IMG/VR virus record: IMGVR_UViG_3300033571_002930
Location: 1-47,941 of that record
Strand: one strand, 5' to 3'
Length of the DNA: 47,941 bases
Source: a virus
Part shown: positions 2,812-9,280 of the stretch, in pieces
How positions within the stretch are numbered: the stretch's first letter is position 1
Layout: the number at the start of each line of letters is the position of its first letter
Translations under genes and position numbers: made by a program
The notes under the pieces: model-generated
What the model was told of the DNA's origin: nothing
Database searches by the model: none
The model's input: only the letters and a program-made list of their open reading frames with translations

Positions 2812-3243
2812 TCATAGGTTGTCGGTAACCCATATAGGGTATGGCGCTCCAAAGTTCTCGCCAATTACATCAAAGTACAAATGCCCATAAGCCGTCTCCT
2901 CATCTAACCCTTCTTTCATGAGAATCTTAATGCACTTTGCAATTGAATATACCAACCGCATACTCTCCTCGTCGATACCAATTATAGCCTCGTCAAATTT
3001 GTTTACCCTGATAATCTTCTCTTCAGGAAACTCCTCAATAATCTTTTTCAGCATCTTGTCAGTATCTCTTTTGACCGTCGTCATCTTGTGACATGACGGA
3101 CACTCAACCCTGTCGACATACTTGATGTCAACCTTTCCGTCGGGCCACACAATTTGGTCACTCTCTATGATGGCCACCCACTTGTGACCACATATCAAGC
3201 ACTCAGCGTGCGGCACCACCTCATATACTACTCCTACTCTCAT
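2812..3243 (-). CDS. Zinc-ribbon protein of the chaperonin operon
   Basis: A 143-residue protein with a probable N-terminal zinc ribbon: Cys15-x2-Cys18 (AECLICGHKW) and Cys48-x2-Cys51 (VECPSCHK). A mostly helical, mixed-charge C-terminal part contains EEFPEEKII and MRLVYSIAKCIKILMKEG. The first 23 bases overlap the end of groEL. Its stop codon is followed directly, in the same frame, by the TTG that begins the nuclease. I do not recognise the family. The conserved operon position suggests a partner or substrate of the chaperonin or nuclease, which is speculation. Confidence 0.75.
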   Translation of the reverse strand: MRVGVVYEVVPHAECLICGHKWVAIIESDQIVWPDGKVDIKYVDRVECPSCHKMTTVKRDTDKMLKKIIEEFPEEKIIRVNKFDEAIIGIDEESMRLVYSIAKCIKILMKEGLDEETAYGHLYFDVIGENFGAPYPIWVTDNL

Positions 3244-4825
3244 ATGAACGTGCCATTGTGATTATTGCATTTGTGCTCAGTATCGTCACCGCCACACTCA
3301 CAGCATTCTGCAAAGCCGACCTCGTCACCTTCACAGGGTCAATCACTCCCATCTCAATCAAGTCACCCTTCAAACCCGTTTTCAAATTATAGCCCTCTCC
3401 GAGGCTCTCTGTGCCATCGTAGATGTTTTTGGCATCTAACCCTGCATTTTCTAATATCTGCGCTCTAGGAGCCTGTAATGCAGCGTGGAGCATATTCATC
3501 GCTACAACTGTCTCAGGATTGTCATTCGGCTTAAGCGATAATGCACTTATCTCGGCGAGTGCCTTGCCTGCCCCGGGAAGTATCCCTTCCTCAAGAGCCG
3601 ACCTTACCGCCATCACCGCATCCTCAACCCTATCGTACAGCTCCTTCTGCTCAAGGTCAGTGTTGCCACCAACATAAATCACCCCGATGCCACCTGAGAG
3701 TGAGGCGATACGTTCAAGTAAAAAGTCTTTGTCGTTCTTCTTGGTGGCTTGTGCATGGGCCTCCCAAAGTTGTTTGATGCGCTCATTAATTTTATCCTCA
3801 CTACTACGCAGCGAGGATTTAAGAACTATGGTCTTATCCCTGCTCACGATGACCTTGGCCGCATGGCCCAAGTCACCGTAGTTAATCAAGCTCAAGTCGT
3901 CACCCGTCTTCTCGCTGAAGTACTTGGCACCCACGCTAAGCGCAATGTCCTGCATCAGCTCGTGTTGCTTGTACCCAAAGTTGGGCGGAGCGACAGCCAC
4001 CACCTTCAGGTTCCCCTTCACCACATTCGCAGCCAACGTGTTCACCACGTTCGTTCCGCAAGGAGAGATAATCAGCAGCTTCTTGCCCTCAGTGATGATT
4101 GGTTTCAAAACCATCTCAATCTGCAATATGTTCGCTATCTCAGTGTCAGCCACCAACACCATCACATCCTCAAAAACACACTCGTCCTTCTTGTGGTCGT
4201 TTATGAACAACGGGCTCAAATACCCCCTGTCAAATTTCATACCCTTGGTCGTCTCAGCATACGTCTCACTCGTCTGACTCTTCTCAACCGTCACAATACC
4301 ACTACGCCCCACATCCTTGTAAACCTCGCCAATTATCTTGCCTATCGACTTGTCATTGTTCGCACTAATCGTCGCTACGTCCACCAACATCTTGTTCGTC
4401 AACTTGCGTGCCCTGTCCTTGAGATTGTCCACCACCATCTCACTCATCTCCACCAACGACCTCAACACCGCCGTCCTGTTCATGCTCGGCTCTATCAAAG
4501 CCATCCCACTCTTTACCAACGCCTCTGTCAGCACAATCGCTGTAGTCGTCCCGTCACCCGCACTCGTCGCCGTCTTGTCTGCCGCCTCCTTCATCATCTT
4601 CACCGCCAAGTTCTCAATCGGGTCCAACAGCTCAATAGCCTTGGCCACCGTCACACCATCCTTGGTGACCGTGATGCCATGCGTGTGCTGAGGAGACTCA
4701 ATCAACACCGTGTTACCGTTAGGGCCCAAAGTGCTCTTCACAGCACGGGCCATCTTGTCTATGCCATCTGCCAAGCGCTTCTGCGCCTGAGAGGCAAACT
4801 CTAATTCTTTGGGAGAATATTCCAT
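3221..4825 (-). CDS. groEL: GroEL chaperonin (Cpn60), phage-encoded
   Basis: A 534-residue group I chaperonin (E. coli GroEL is 548). The nucleotide-binding motifs TLGPNG (32-37), KDGVTV (55-60) and GDGTTT (90-95) are intact. The Asp needed for ATP hydrolysis is present as Asp402 in RVEDAVMAVRSALEEG. The usual GGG after it is GAG (418-420). The C-terminus ends in ...SYESRSSI and lacks the GGM-repeat tail. GroEL folds proteins in its ring cavity with GroES; phage copies may help fold capsid or tail proteins. The gene has its own promoter match 20 bases upstream and overlaps the next gene by 23 bases. Confidence 0.97.
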   Translation of the reverse strand: MEYSPKELEFASQAQKRLADGIDKMARAVKSTLGPNGNTVLIESPQHTHGITVTKDGVTVAKAIELLDPIENLAVKMMKEAADKTATSAGDGTTTAIVLTEALVKSGMALIEPSMNRTAVLRSLVEMSEMVVDNLKDRARKLTNKMLVDVATISANNDKSIGKIIGEVYKDVGRSGIVTVEKSQTSETYAETTKGMKFDRGYLSPLFINDHKKDECVFEDVMVLVADTEIANILQIEMVLKPIITEGKKLLIISPCGTNVVNTLAANVVKGNLKVVAVAPPNFGYKQHELMQDIALSVGAKYFSEKTGDDLSLINYGDLGHAAKVIVSRDKTIVLKSSLRSSEDKINERIKQLWEAHAQATKKNDKDFLLERIASLSGGIGVIYVGGNTDLEQKELYDRVEDAVMAVRSALEEGILPGAGKALAEISALSLKPNDNPETVVAMNMLHAALQAPRAQILENAGLDAKNIYDGTESLGEGYNLKTGLKGDLIEMGVIDPVKVTRSALQNAVSVAVTILSTNAIITMARSYESRSSI

Positions 4826-5771: not shown

Positions 5772-5916
5772 TTTCGTGTACGCGTCACCGATATTTTGGC
5801 GTTTTCGTGTACGGGTGTGCGTTAGTACATTCGTTTCACCTATCCGTCCCCGTTAGTCCCCTTTCGTCTACGCGTCCCCGTTAGTCAGCCCGTTTCGTGT
5901 GTTCATCCCCGTTAGT
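5772..5916. repeat. Five imperfect tandem repeats of about 30 bp in divergent region
   Basis: Five diverged units starting at about 5772, 5802, 5831, 5861 and 5891, with composite consensus TTTCGTGTACGCGTC followed by CCCGTTAGT. The GTTAGT ends of units 2-5 fall at 5821, 5852, 5880 and 5911, spaced 31, 28 and 31 bases. The block contains no convincing gene and lies between the leftward gene ending its leader near 5640 and the rightward early promoter near 6215. Iterated sites like this are typical of replication origins or of operators for a repeatedly binding regulator; which applies is not decidable here. Confidence 0.75.
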
Positions 5917-5949: not shown

Positions 5950-6124
5950 ACTAACAAATGTTAGTTAGTTTTCGCATAGGGGCAATACCCCCTCCCAAAA
6001 TTTAGGTTCTTTATTTTTCGTCTATCCCTATCCGTTACTAGCCATTACATTTTCATTTCTAATTTTTTCGCCTATTCATTAAATTATTTCAAATGAAATA
6101 GTTAGTTTTTTAGATGGCATCTAA
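5950..6124. promoter_or_regulatory. Cluster of three operator-like palindromes
   Basis: Three perfect inverted repeats in the AT-rich stretch before the early promoter: ACTAAC-AAAT-GTTAGT (5950-5965), TATTTCA-AA-TGAAATA (6085-6100) and TTAGATG-G-CATCTAA (6110-6124). The first reuses the GTTAGT end of the neighbouring tandem repeats. Their sequences differ, so different proteins may bind. The rest of 5640-6190 shows no gene I can support. Confidence 0.5.
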
Positions 6125-6190
6125 CAAAATAGTCATTTCATTGAATAAAAACGAAATTTTTAATAAAAAACAAAAAAAACACAAAAAAAA

Positions 6191-6222
6191 TTTTGTAGTG
6201 TTAAAATAGTGTCTTATATTTG
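6191..6222 (+). promoter_or_regulatory. Early promoter, Bacteroidota type
   Basis: TTTTG (6191-6195) and TATATTTG (6215-6222) are separated by 19 bases, a full match to the TTTG/TAnnTTTG consensus. Transcription should start near 6228, giving a leader of about 75 bases that carries the first copy of the GAGTGTCTT hairpin before the gene at 6302. Confidence 0.8.
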
Positions 6223-6267
6223 TATTGTCAATCGGGGAAGTAGACACTCCCCAAAAATTAACAAACC

Positions 6268-6287
6268 GAGTGTCTTCAAAGACACTC
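6268..6287 (+). promoter_or_regulatory. Leader hairpin element, copy 1
   Basis: Perfect inverted repeat with 9-bp arms GAGTGTCTT and AAGACACTC and a 2-base centre (CA), preceded by AACC and followed by ACAAAACAAAAGTC and the ATG at 6302. The same element occurs at 6951 and 7974 at the same distance from a start codon. Here an extra AGACACTC (6242-6249) can pair with GAGTGTCT, giving an alternative structure. Confidence 0.8.
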
Positions 6288-6301
6288 ACAAAACAAAAGT
6301 C

Positions 6302-6826
6302 ATGAGCAACAAAAAAACAATTTTTCAGTTCGCAAAGTTCGCACAATTAAATGCAAAATTAAAGCAGTGCGAAGAAACAAAATTTGCAATTTCCATTGAA
6401 ATGGGTGAAGTTCTAAATGTTGATATCCCAAAGTTCAAAACTGATGAAGGCAAGGAATACTACAAGACGCAAGGCAATCCTTACCCAACTATTGAGGAGT
6501 TTATAAAGGGTGAATATAAGATTGAGAAATCATGGGCTTACAAAATAATGAAGGCGGCGAAAATTGACACCCAAACCCGCAAAAATTATGAGGCAATGGA
6601 GAACGCACAAGGCAATACTTGCTCAATCGCAAAGTTCATAAAATTTGCGGAGGGCGGAGAAAGTGAAGGCGAAGGCGAAGGCGAAGGCGAAGTGAAGGAA
6701 CCAAAGGCGAAGCCTCAAATGTTCAAAGCCTCATGCAGTGCGAAGGGCGATATAAAAATATCGGGTACAATATCCAAAGAATTCGCCACCATGCTGATTG
6801 AAGAAATCAAAAAAGCAATCAAATAA
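6302..6826 (+). CDS. Unknown early protein with HTH-like segment and GEGEG linker
   Basis: A 174-residue protein. The start at 6302 was chosen because it lies 14 bases after the leader hairpin; upstream in-frame codons would translate the hairpin. Residues 1-60 are Lys/Phe/Ala-rich (FQFAKFAQLNAKLKQCEETK). Residues 73-104 (TIEEFIKGEYKIEKSWAYKI and following) look like a helix-turn-helix. A linker of repeated GE follows, then a short C-terminal domain ISGTISKEFATMLIEEIKKA. I do not recognise a family. As first gene of the rightward early transcript with an HTH-like core, a regulatory or DNA-binding role is likely but inferred. Confidence 0.7.
   Translation: MSNKKTIFQFAKFAQLNAKLKQCEETKFAISIEMGEVLNVDIPKFKTDEGKEYYKTQGNPYPTIEEFIKGEYKIEKSWAYKIMKAAKIDTQTRKNYEAMENAQGNTCSIAKFIKFAEGGESEGEGEGEGEVKEPKAKPQMFKASCSAKGDIKISGTISKEFATMLIEEIKKAIK
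6665..6692 (+). repeat. GAAGGC hexanucleotide microsatellite within gene
   Basis: Four to five tandem GAAGGC units encode the Glu-Gly linker of the 174-residue protein. Unit-number changes would keep the frame and vary only linker length. Confidence 0.7.
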
Positions 6827-6828
6827 TC

Positions 6829-6857
6829 TTAGGGGCTACGGCCCCTAATTTTTTTTT
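6829..6857 (+). terminator. Rho-independent terminator of first early gene
   Basis: Stem TTAGGGGC/GCCCCTAA with a TACG loop (6829-6848) followed by nine T residues, starting 2 bases after the stop of the 174-residue gene. Confidence 0.9.
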
Positions 6858-6881
6858 CGCACTATCATACTATCATGGCGG

Positions 6882-6931
6882 GCTGTGGTCGGATGAGGTC
6901 GGGTGTGGTGGCGTGCTGTGGTGGGATGCGG
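6882..6931 (+). repeat. G-rich direct repeat
   Basis: GCTGTGGTCGGATGAGG (6882-6898) recurs as GCTGTGGTGGGATGCGG (6915-6931), two mismatches in 17. The stretch 6878-6931 is nearly free of C runs and has many GG pairs. It lies between the terminator and the second leader hairpin; no promoter match was found, so how the downstream gene is transcribed is unclear. Confidence 0.5.
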
Positions 6932-6950
6932 CTACAATTAATTTCAAACC

Positions 6951-6970
6951 GAGTGTCTTTGAAGACACTC
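6951..6970 (+). promoter_or_regulatory. Leader hairpin element, copy 2
   Basis: Arms GAGTGTCTT and AAGACACTC around TG, preceded by AAACC and followed by ACAAATCAAATCAA and the ATG at 6985, a gap of 14 bases as in copy 1. Flanks as well as arms are conserved between copies. Confidence 0.8.
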
Positions 6971-6984
6971 ACAAATCAAATCAA

Positions 6985-7239
6985 ATGCGTACATTATCAA
7001 TCTTCTTTGCAGTGGTCAGTATCTTCTACATGACCATTTCATCCTACGCCATCGTGTCGTGGGATAACACACCCTTTCAAATGCTATTCCTTCAAATGAC
7101 ATGGTCAATGTCGGCAATGTTATTTGGAGTATCTGCTCATAGTATTGGGTGGATAAGAGAAAAATACATGACTGCCATCTTCGTTGGTGGAGTCATGTGC
7201 TTCTTTATGAGCATCTTATACATATTTCATAACCTTTAA
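6985..7239 (+). CDS. Small membrane protein (84 aa)
   Basis: An 84-residue protein beginning MRTLSIFFAVVSIFYMTISS, with three hydrophobic segments at about residues 3-25, 33-53 and 62-83 separated by short polar loops (WDNTPFQ and GWIREKY). The start at 6985 is set by the 14-base spacing to the leader hairpin; a longer frame would run through it. Family unknown. An early membrane protein may act in superinfection exclusion or in altering the host envelope, which is inference. It is followed 11 bases later by a lipoprotein gene. Confidence 0.7.
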   Translation: MRTLSIFFAVVSIFYMTISSYAIVSWDNTPFQMLFLQMTWSMSAMLFGVSAHSIGWIREKYMTAIFVGGVMCFFMSILYIFHNL

Positions 7240-7250
7240 TTTCAAGTAAA

Positions 7251-7421
7251 ATGTCAAACAACGAGAAAATCAGCCACAACTTAACCCTATTGCTAATTGC
7301 CTGCATCGCCATGATGGTCGCACTATCATCGTGCGGCTACATTAAAAACTGCCGAAATGCCAAAGGCTGCCCAAACAATGCGTGCTTTGGTTCCAAAAGA
7401 TCGGGATTAATTGGATACTAA
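7251..7421 (+). CDS. Small lipoprotein (56 aa)
   Basis: A 56-codon frame, ATG at 7251 to TAA at 7419-7421. Residues 11-27 are a hydrophobic signal segment (LTLLLIACIAMMVALSS) followed by Cys28 in LSSCGY, a lipobox-like signal peptidase II site. The mature part has three more cysteines (CRNAKGCPNNAC). It should be lipid-anchored to the cell envelope. The stop overlaps the start of the next gene (TAATG). A small lipoprotein expressed early next to a membrane protein fits a superinfection-exclusion role, but there is no direct evidence. Confidence 0.65.
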   Translation: MSNNEKISHNLTLLLIACIAMMVALSSCGYIKNCRNAKGCPNNACFGSKRSGLIGY

Positions 7422-7657
7422 TGGAAACGACAAACTGCGTAAAATGTGGCGGGGCTATGCCGTTGCTCCGCCTCACGAGGTACGGCTACAAGAACTGCGT
7501 GAACTGCTCAAATGTTCAGCGTGTCGGTGGCGTACCCATCACGAACCACAAAACAGGCAACACGATACAGGTGGTGCCTCGGGATGTGGCTGACAATATA
7601 ATCAGATTATCCCAACGCAAAGGGTACGGCGTATGCAGTGGGATGAAACATAATTGA
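7421..7657 (+). CDS. Zinc-ribbon protein (78 aa)
   Basis: A 78-residue protein with the start at 7421 fixed by a TAATG overlap with the lipoprotein gene. Cys6-x2-Cys9 (NCVKCGG) and Cys26-x2-Cys29 (NCVNCSN) form a probable zinc ribbon at the N-terminus, with TRYGYK between them. The rest, VGGVPITNHKTGNTIQVVPR and then a helix ending GYGVCSGMK, resembles a conserved small phage protein I recall but cannot name. It could bind nucleic acid or a host protein. A strong hairpin follows the stop. Confidence 0.7.
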   Translation: METTNCVKCGGAMPLLRLTRYGYKNCVNCSNVQRVGGVPITNHKTGNTIQVVPRDVADNIIRLSQRKGYGVCSGMKHN

Positions 7658-7658
7658 A

Positions 7659-7678
7659 TAGTACGCTTTAGCGTACTA
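7659..7678 (+). promoter_or_regulatory. Perfect hairpin between genes
   Basis: TAGTACGC-TTTA-GCGTACTA, 8-bp arms, two bases after a stop codon and 22 bases before the next ATG. No T-run follows, so it is a weak terminator candidate. It may protect mRNA ends or act like the leader hairpins nearby. Confidence 0.55.
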
Positions 7679-7700
7679 CGAAACCATAAAATCAAATCAA

Positions 7701-7877
7701 ATGCAAGACGCGTATCAATTAGCCATCAACATCGTCAGGGATTGGACTGACAAGCAGGTGTGTGAATACCTAAACTTGAACTACTACGACTATGACGATG
7801 AGGACATGTACGATTTAAGGTATCATGCCACCATCCAAAAGGCAGAGCAACTTTTGGAACAAAATATAGTGGCGTAG
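7701..7877 (+). CDS. Small acidic protein (58 aa)
   Basis: A 58-residue acidic protein from ATG 7701, preceded by the A-rich leader ATCAAATCAA typical of this region. Begins MQDAYQLAINIVRDWTDKQ, has the acidic-aromatic segment NYYDYDDEDMYD and ends with a helix TIQKAEQLLEQNIVA. No family recognised. Two short amphipathic helices flanking an acidic patch would fit a small inhibitor or DNA-mimic-like protein, but that is speculation. Confidence 0.6.
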   Translation: MQDAYQLAINIVRDWTDKQVCEYLNLNYYDYDDEDMYDLRYHATIQKAEQLLEQNIVA

Positions 7878-7899
7878 AACAAAATAACACCCAAATAAA

Positions 7900-7931
7900 T
7901 TTGGATGTTATCTTAATATGTGCTATATTTG
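7900..7931 (+). promoter_or_regulatory. Bacteroidota-type promoter before the 423-aa gene
   Basis: TTTG (7900-7903) and TATATTTG (7924-7931) with 20 bases between. Transcription from near 7937 gives a leader of about 70 bases that carries the third hairpin element. It likely drives the gene run from 8009 onward. Confidence 0.8.
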
Positions 7932-7973
7932 TGTATTATTAGTAATTAACCACACATTTTCTATTCCTTAACC

Positions 7974-7993
7974 GAGTGTCTTTGAAGACACTA
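7974..7993 (+). promoter_or_regulatory. Leader hairpin element, copy 3
   Basis: GAGTGTCTT-TG-AAGACACTA: the last base of the 3' arm differs from the other copies, leaving 8 pairs. It is preceded by TTAACC and followed by ACAAATCAAACAGTT and ATG at 8009, a 15-base gap. Confidence 0.8.
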
Positions 7994-8008
7994 ACAAATC
8001 AAACAGTT

Positions 8009-9280
8009 ATGAACTACTCTGAAAGTTTCAGGGCTTTCCTCTGCGAGAAGCGAGAGGAGAGCAAGATTGCAAGCCTACTGCATGAGTGCGTATGGCTTAA
8101 AAGGAGTCAATACAATGCCTACAAGTTGGCTGTGACTGACAAGGAAATTGACTACCTCACGTTCAGAAATGACGGAACAATCAGTTTCCTACCCGCAGGT
8201 AAGGAGCACAAGGTCAATGACCAAGGTGATTGGTCAAGAGAAGGTCGCCAAAATGGTCGCCCCTCTCGTGTTATCCGTAAGGTCCTCACACCTAAGGCAC
8301 AGAAGCGGTTCAAGGACACTGACTACGAGGTGTTCGCAAGGTTCTACCAAGCCAAGTGTGAGGCTGAGGCGAAGACATTTGTCATCAAGCCGAACACAGC
8401 CATCCCCGATGTGTACTGCGAGAAAAGGGAGGACGGAGGTGCCTCGCTCAACGGCTCGTGTATGAATGGGGACAGGGACTACCTCACATTCTACCACCTC
8501 TTTGACGTTGACATCCTATGTATGTACAACAACGAGGGATTGCTATCGGGTCGGGCATTGCTGTGGCGACTGCCTGAGGGCAAGACGTTTATGGACAGGG
8601 TGTATGTGGCTCGGGAGCATTACTATGAGATGTTCATTGACTATGCTCGGGACCAAGAGAATTGGTTTTGGAAGAAGAACTACAAGTCCTATGACGACAA
8701 GCGTATGTTCATGTCTAACGAGGGTGAGTTTGAGAAGAAGCTGATTGTGTGGACGAAGAACAAGGGAGAAGCAGAGTGGGACTACTACCCATACATAGAC
8801 ACGTTCTCAAATGGTGACTACAACTCCCTCAATAATTACGGCAGTGGCGAATACACCTACAATGATACGGGCGGTAGCAGAGAGGGTGACACAAGGTGGA
8901 TGGAGTGCTGTGTGTGTGGGCGTGAGTATCCCGAGGATGAGATGTACTATGTTGACAGAGGTCAGTATCGGGGTGAGTATGTGTGTGACAATCACGCTAT
9001 ACATGTGGGAGGTAATGTGTGGACCACTCATGACGAGGATACTCATATCGTGCAGGTCAGTGGGGATTGGTATGAGAAGGACGATGACGATATCAGATAC
9101 CTTGACGATGAGGGCGAGTGGGTACTTGCCGATGACGCTGTGTACTGCGAGAGAGACGAGAAGTATTACAGGACCGAGGATTGCGTAGAGGACTACGAGG
9201 GCAATTGGATACTAAGAACTGAGGCGTATGAAGTAAATGGGGACTATTATCATGAATCAATCGTAAATAAAGTAGCATAA
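8009..9280 (+). CDS. Large early protein of unknown function with C-terminal cysteine motif
   Basis: A 423-residue protein; start at 8009 chosen by the hairpin spacing. The N-terminal two thirds contain SGRALLWRLPEGKTFMDRVY and EHYYEMFIDYARDQENWFWK, which I recall from uncharacterised phage proteins. Near residue 300 a CCVCGREYPEDEMYYVD segment with a later VCDNH suggests a zinc site. The last 120 residues are acidic with repeated short units of the form YYxxEDCVxDYEGNW. Fold and activity unknown. It is followed 2 bases later by the M20-like peptidase gene, so the two are co-translated and may act together. Confidence 0.75.
   Translation: MNYSESFRAFLCEKREESKIASLLHECVWLKRSQYNAYKLAVTDKEIDYLTFRNDGTISFLPAGKEHKVNDQGDWSREGRQNGRPSRVIRKVLTPKAQKRFKDTDYEVFARFYQAKCEAEAKTFVIKPNTAIPDVYCEKREDGGASLNGSCMNGDRDYLTFYHLFDVDILCMYNNEGLLSGRALLWRLPEGKTFMDRVYVAREHYYEMFIDYARDQENWFWKKNYKSYDDKRMFMSNEGEFEKKLIVWTKNKGEAEWDYYPYIDTFSNGDYNSLNNYGSGEYTYNDTGGSREGDTRWMECCVCGREYPEDEMYYVDRGQYRGEYVCDNHAIHVGGNVWTTHDEDTHIVQVSGDWYEKDDDDIRYLDDEGEWVLADDAVYCERDEKYYRTEDCVEDYEGNWILRTEAYEVNGDYYHESIVNKVA

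Follow-up and report, generated by a model that had tools for sequence, protein, structure and literature searches.

The window, that is, the whole 47,941-nucleotide stretch of viral DNA analyzed here, encodes a phage GroEL-like chaperonin on the minus strand (3221-4825; groEL is also annotated in podovirus isolate ctfjg026, MW202828, and in an Elemovirus). Six 22-nt repeats of the TTTCGTCTACGCGTCCCCGTTA type (5772-5914 and 6016-6037; five at 28-31 nt spacing), which are possible iterons, separate the groEL block, which runs leftward, from the early genes, which run rightward. The first early gene is ORF-A (6302-6826, + strand, 174 amino acids), the product of which is a candidate DNA-binding protein. 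A small hairpin (GGGGAAGTAGACACTCCCC, with GACACTC inside it) is present in its leader at 6234-6252. ORF-A is followed by an intrinsic-terminator-like hairpin with a T-run (TTAGGGGC/GCCCCTAA, 6829-6857, + strand), by a gene for an 84-amino acid protein predicted by eye to be a membrane protein (6985-7239, + strand) and, farther on, by a gene for a 423-amino acid protein (8009-9280, + strand). Pfam and PHROG searches gave no match for either protein, and among relatives the 423-amino acid protein is encoded only in a near-identical contig.

Each of these three genes is preceded by one copy of an inverted repeat. A search that allowed up to three mismatches found just three copies of GAGTGTCTTNNAAGACACTC in the window: at 6268-6287 (16-bp core at 6270-6285, GTGTCTTCAAAGACAC), at 6951-6970, beyond the terminator-like hairpin (core at 6953-6968, GTGTCTTTGAAGACAC), and at 7974-7993 (core at 7976-7991, GTGTCTTTGAAGACAC). 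By chance 0.03 copies are expected, and none of 100 shuffles of the window gave three. From the end of each copy to the ATG (6302, 6985 and 8009) there are 14, 14 and 15 nt; these gaps and the conserved AACCGA and ACAAAnCAAA flanks are all as described in the initial annotation. Its placement of two copies downstream of promoters is also supported: we identified putative Bacteroidota-type boxes by eye (TTTG-N20-TATATTTG), the -7 elements of which (6215-6222 and 7924-7931, both + strand) end 45 nt before copy 1 and 42 nt before copy 3. The dyads are thus predicted at about +40 and +37 in the transcripts. Folded as RNA, the copies form hairpins of 8, 8 and 7 bp, the outermost pair of copy 3 being broken by a C to A change at 7993; fold z-scores of the leaders relative to shuffles are -5.1, -3.3 and -1.1. 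The earlier statement that the repeat belongs to no described family holds for Rfam 15, which has no gathering-level match in the window (covariance models gave only chance-level matches across 6150-8060). RNase III-type processing was considered, but a stem of 7-9 bp seems too short for it. In the near-identical contig (62,359 bases; L007 and G030 in our sets) the three copies and their spacings are as in the window, and there are no others.

Pattern scans of a viral collection yielded 29 and 120 stretches, one stretch having 14 copies, and loci were also sampled independently of the motif, using the sequences of an amidotransferase-like early protein (80 loci) and of ORF-A (78 loci). Named relatives, found via a structural protein, are MW202828 (72% identity), Elemovirus, Cellulophaga phages and Maribacter phage Panino. 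Related phage contigs of about 60 kb have one dominant 16-bp palindrome apiece, in 3-18 copies and with a genome-specific sequence: most, including the window, have GTGTCTTYRAAGACAC, and others have versions of the GTCTCTT, GTCCGTT, GTGTCGT or GTGTA type. The GTGTC pattern is present in 3-18 copies in 28 of the 31 records scanned, the other three having GTCCG/RTCCG and GTCTC versions, and the reversed-pattern control gave no copies in any of the 31. A palindrome census of twelve genomes, some of them partial, recovered a single dominant family in every one (3-15 copies by that count): GTGTCTT in eight, including the near-identical contig, GTCCGTT in two (G013 and G025), GTCTCTT in one (G012) and GTGTCGT in MW202828. 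A literature search on palindromic repeats in Flavobacterium phages returned nothing relevant.

At homologous sites the two arms change in concert between genomes. This is the case before the amidotransferase-like, amidoligase-like and ~249-amino acid protein genes, in a ...QYWE stretch, and within the helicase gene. At the helicase site GTGTCTTTGAAGACAC encodes SVFEDT, and genomes of other types have GTCTCTTTGAAGAGAC or the near-site GTCCGTTTGAACGTAC instead; thus, the amino acids follow the site. The length of the helicase is nearly equal with and without the dyad, so the dyad arose there by substitution, and insertion of a mobile palindrome was rejected.

The initial annotation proposed testing related phages for a fixed spacing to start codons, and this is found for a subset only. 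Counting ORFs of at least 45 codons on the early-gene strand, 109 of 486 distinct GTGTC-type sites (22%) are 14-24 nt before an ATG, compared with 137 of 2430 random positions (5.6%). Other sites fall within coding sequence, upstream of hammerhead ribozymes or within hairpins that resemble terminators; copies of the last kind, with T-runs, occur upstream of the ~249-amino acid protein gene in several genomes. Predicted coding sequence holds 41 of 108 copies in the 12 genomes (~38%, based on crude gene prediction), which leans towards refuting an element tied to start codons. The start-codon spacing is real, but it is one use of a more widely used site. The dyads are densest in the early region and leaders, where all three copies of the window phage lie, and those of relatives are dispersed, including into late and coding regions.

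The early leaders of relatives contain 150 distinct hammerhead-like cores, which without exception are on the early-gene strand and mostly lie 20-35 nt before an ATG (loci include L021, L051, L055, L147, L161, L176 and L204). A dyad is present within 75 nt upstream of 92 of these cores, and 77 of the 486 distinct sites (16%) have a core within 75 nt downstream. Where scored against the Rfam type III hammerhead model (RF00008), the cores reach 34-45 bits, below the gathering threshold of 48.5, and so would be missed by routine annotation. The hammerheads are neighbors of the dyads rather than the element itself, and no core was seen in the window.

Two readings of the repeat had been offered initially, an RNA element of the leader acting on translation or mRNA stability, and a repressor site within the leader. 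The repressor site is the better fit. A set of 530 cores has perfect GTGTC/GACAC arms; these show T or C at position 6 and A or G at position 11, largely independently, with a Y-R center; the degeneracy is two-fold symmetric, as Y6/R11 and Y8/R9 vary largely independently. Read as RNA pairs, positions 6 and 11 form C-A (37) as commonly as U-G (28). Compensatory arm changes, which had been proposed as a check, are not the rule within genomes: among 16 single-arm mismatches, nine break the pair, four give G-U and three give A-C, with no bias towards preserving pairing. Symmetric degeneracy combined with mismatches of this kind would be expected if each subunit of a dimer contacted the same half-site sequence. 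If that is correct, the repeats also caution against taking a perfect leader palindrome, on its own, as evidence of an RNA element.

We consider it unlikely that the repeat is chiefly a genome-specific mRNA hairpin, through which a phage RNA-binding protein or endoribonuclease would control translation or processing of early mRNAs. The location of copies in transcribed leaders would suit such a hairpin, as would the enrichment before ATGs, the proximity of hammerheads (themselves RNA-processing devices) and the surplus of CA relative to TG at the center when sites are read on the early-gene strand (304:108). Arm variation that ignores pairing, degeneracy that is symmetric about the dyad and the large intragenic share of copies do not. 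The exception is the leader of the amidotransferase-like gene in relatives (L147-L226), which is an RNA structure as well. Here, a covarying hairpin consists of a lower stem, an asymmetric internal loop and an upper stem; 98.5% of cells are paired, and double changes are found in nine of ten pairs. Doubly changed cells number 80, far more than in slid controls or in shuffles (16.9). Arm changes are thus compensatory in this leader, and for it the RNA reading holds. Together, the ATG enrichment, the CA excess and this covariation suggest an RNA-level role for some copies.

A related explanation is that there are two layers, a DNA dyad for a regulator and, in some leaders, a separately needed RNA hairpin, on top of which the palindrome would settle because it is self-complementary anyway. 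Of 79 amidotransferase-like-gene loci, 51 carry GTGTC-N6-GACAC and about 20 keep the paired stem without a dyad, and the lower stem covaries independently, all of which would be expected from this arrangement; the terminator-like copies with T-runs before the ~249-amino acid protein gene are also consistent with it. It accounts poorly for the window, where the lower stem comprises at most 1-2 pairs, and for copies in coding sequence, which have no need of a hairpin. We regard this explanation as improbable.

The most likely ligand of the dyads is the ORF-A protein. Homologs are encoded in nearly all repeat-carrying relatives, and upstream of 73 of 91 there is a dyad no more than 700 bp away, usually at 178-275 bp. 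ORF-A and a repeated palindrome are both missing from three outgroup phages, namely C75C1 and, in the stretches read, an Elemovirus and Maribacter phage Panino. The predicted recognition helix has K as its last residue in 82 of the 83 nonredundant GTGTC genomes; GTCCG/RTCCG genomes have D there and GTGTA genomes R. For pairs of proteins with 40-59% identity in the rest of ORF-A, helix identity is 0.81-0.83 when the site type is shared and 0.49-0.50 when it differs, a closer tie to site type than overall identity accounts for. In most relatives the helix starts with QKSFFYK or a near variant; the window protein has EKSWAYK instead of this sequence, which is the usual one of its type (type A), though its site is identical. 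The helix window ranks fourth of 183 seven-residue ORF-A windows in tracking site type, and there were only four or five independent switches of type, so phylogeny may account for the match. Because the sites are genome-specific and apparently matched to the ORF-A protein, they look more like DNA switches than RNA devices.

Another small protein (1774-2208, + strand) has a possible winged helix and is kept in 11 of 12 genomes, its homolog in MW202828 being annotated as 'repressor protein'. This MarR-like protein was rejected as the binder, since, on visual inspection, genomes of the GTGTC type (type A) differ in its recognition region as much among themselves as genomes of different types do.

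An AlphaFold2 model of the window ORF-A protein (pLDDT 83.6) has a helical N-terminus, a helix-turn-helix, an acidic linker (residues 120-137) and a C-terminal beta-beta-alpha unit. In a VIA-align comparison, ParB or VirB DNA-binding structures occupy six of the best nine rows, among them P1 ParB, Myxococcus ParB and VirB; the best is Spo0J-parS (4umk; rmsd 3.3 over 91 residues), with a Z of 6.0 that is within the common chance range. A second model (L021, pLDDT 76.8) produced no row with Z above 5, nor any ParB structure among the matches listed; Foldseek against the PDB gave no significant match, and Pfam gave no match for 12 ORF-A members, the ParB family included. Of 46 pattern matches to ORF-A in bacterial and archaeal genomes, none was confirmed. 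The helix-turn-helix is thus possibly of the ParB/Noc kind, judging by the first model.

parS and NBS are 16-bp palindromes, TGTTTCACGTGAAACA and TATTTCCCGGGAAATA (PMC7383237), and the phage dyads are likewise multi-copy palindromes of 16 bp. A further possible likeness is the helix-turn-helix of the proposed binder, which resembles ParB in one of its two models; others are the K-S pair in the recognition helix (compare K171-S172 of ParB; PMC7383237) and a specificity apparently switched by few residues. Unlike ParB, ORF-A has no N-terminal CTP-binding domain detectable with Pfam (12 members), and, unlike parS and NBS, the phage dyads lie in leaders as well as coding sequence and change in sequence from genome to genome. 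It is very improbable that the dyads serve genome organization (partition, packaging or positioning, as parS or NBS do) and not gene regulation. Their dispersal and the resemblance of the candidate binder to ParB in one model would be in keeping with such a function, and the concentration of sites in early leaders, together with the Pfam result, argues against it.

On balance, we think it probable that the repeats are DNA dyads bound by a phage homodimer, most likely of the ORF-A protein, and that they serve autoregulation and shut-off of early genes. Two half-sites GTGTCYTY would form the 16-bp dyad read by the dimer. In the window phage a dyad is located a short way into the transcribed leader of ORF-A and of each of the two other early genes; copies 1 and 3 are about 40 bp past the transcription start that host-type promoters would give. 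A dimer bound there would block initiation or elongation, resulting in repression of ORF-A and of the two other genes. Relatives have 5-18 such sites over the whole genome, coding and terminator positions included. Self-matched DNA dyads for an early phage regulator, plus RNA structure in some leaders, are in our view the best explanation.

Comparable arrangements exist elsewhere. Stoperators of Cluster A mycobacteriophages are many dispersed repressor sites with a genome-specific motif that correlates with the repressor (PMC6550527). The phage dyads are similarly dispersed and genome-specific, and their change with the protein is supported, across few independent switches; they differ in being perfect dyads, whereas stoperators are asymmetric and oriented with transcription, the repressor bound there blocking elongation, and no relationship of ORF-A to the stoperator-binding protein was found. 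KorB of plasmid RK2 is a ParB-family repressor with palindromic operators (OB) that may be far from the promoter (PMC11790492), as would be the case for a ParB-like binder of the palindromes described here. In contrast, KorB functions as a CTP-dependent clamp in concert with KorA, and nothing comparable was found in these phages. Our literature search on ParB-like phage regulators of early genes returned nothing relevant.

More tentatively, these phages may have a previously undescribed system, in which a small ParB-like protein without a CTP-binding domain controls early genes via 3-18 self-matched dyads per genome and many leaders add a hammerhead directly behind the dyad, combining a DNA switch and an RNA processing device in one leader; we regard this fuller version as less likely than not. 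If the regulator and its dyads are matched as proposed, the phages would offer a natural set of proteins paired with their sites, where a single small helix has kept up with its DNA target over at least 4-5 specificity changes, and the evolution of DNA recognition could be tested with minimal parts. It would also be the first regulator and operator set for this group of uncultured, probably Bacteroidota-infecting phages.

Leaders in this region have other hairpins. One (TAGTACGCTttAGCGTACTA, 7659-7678) is 22 nt before the ATG at 7701 in the window, and in relatives GGGAGC/GCTCCC hairpins are located about 15 nt before ATGs.
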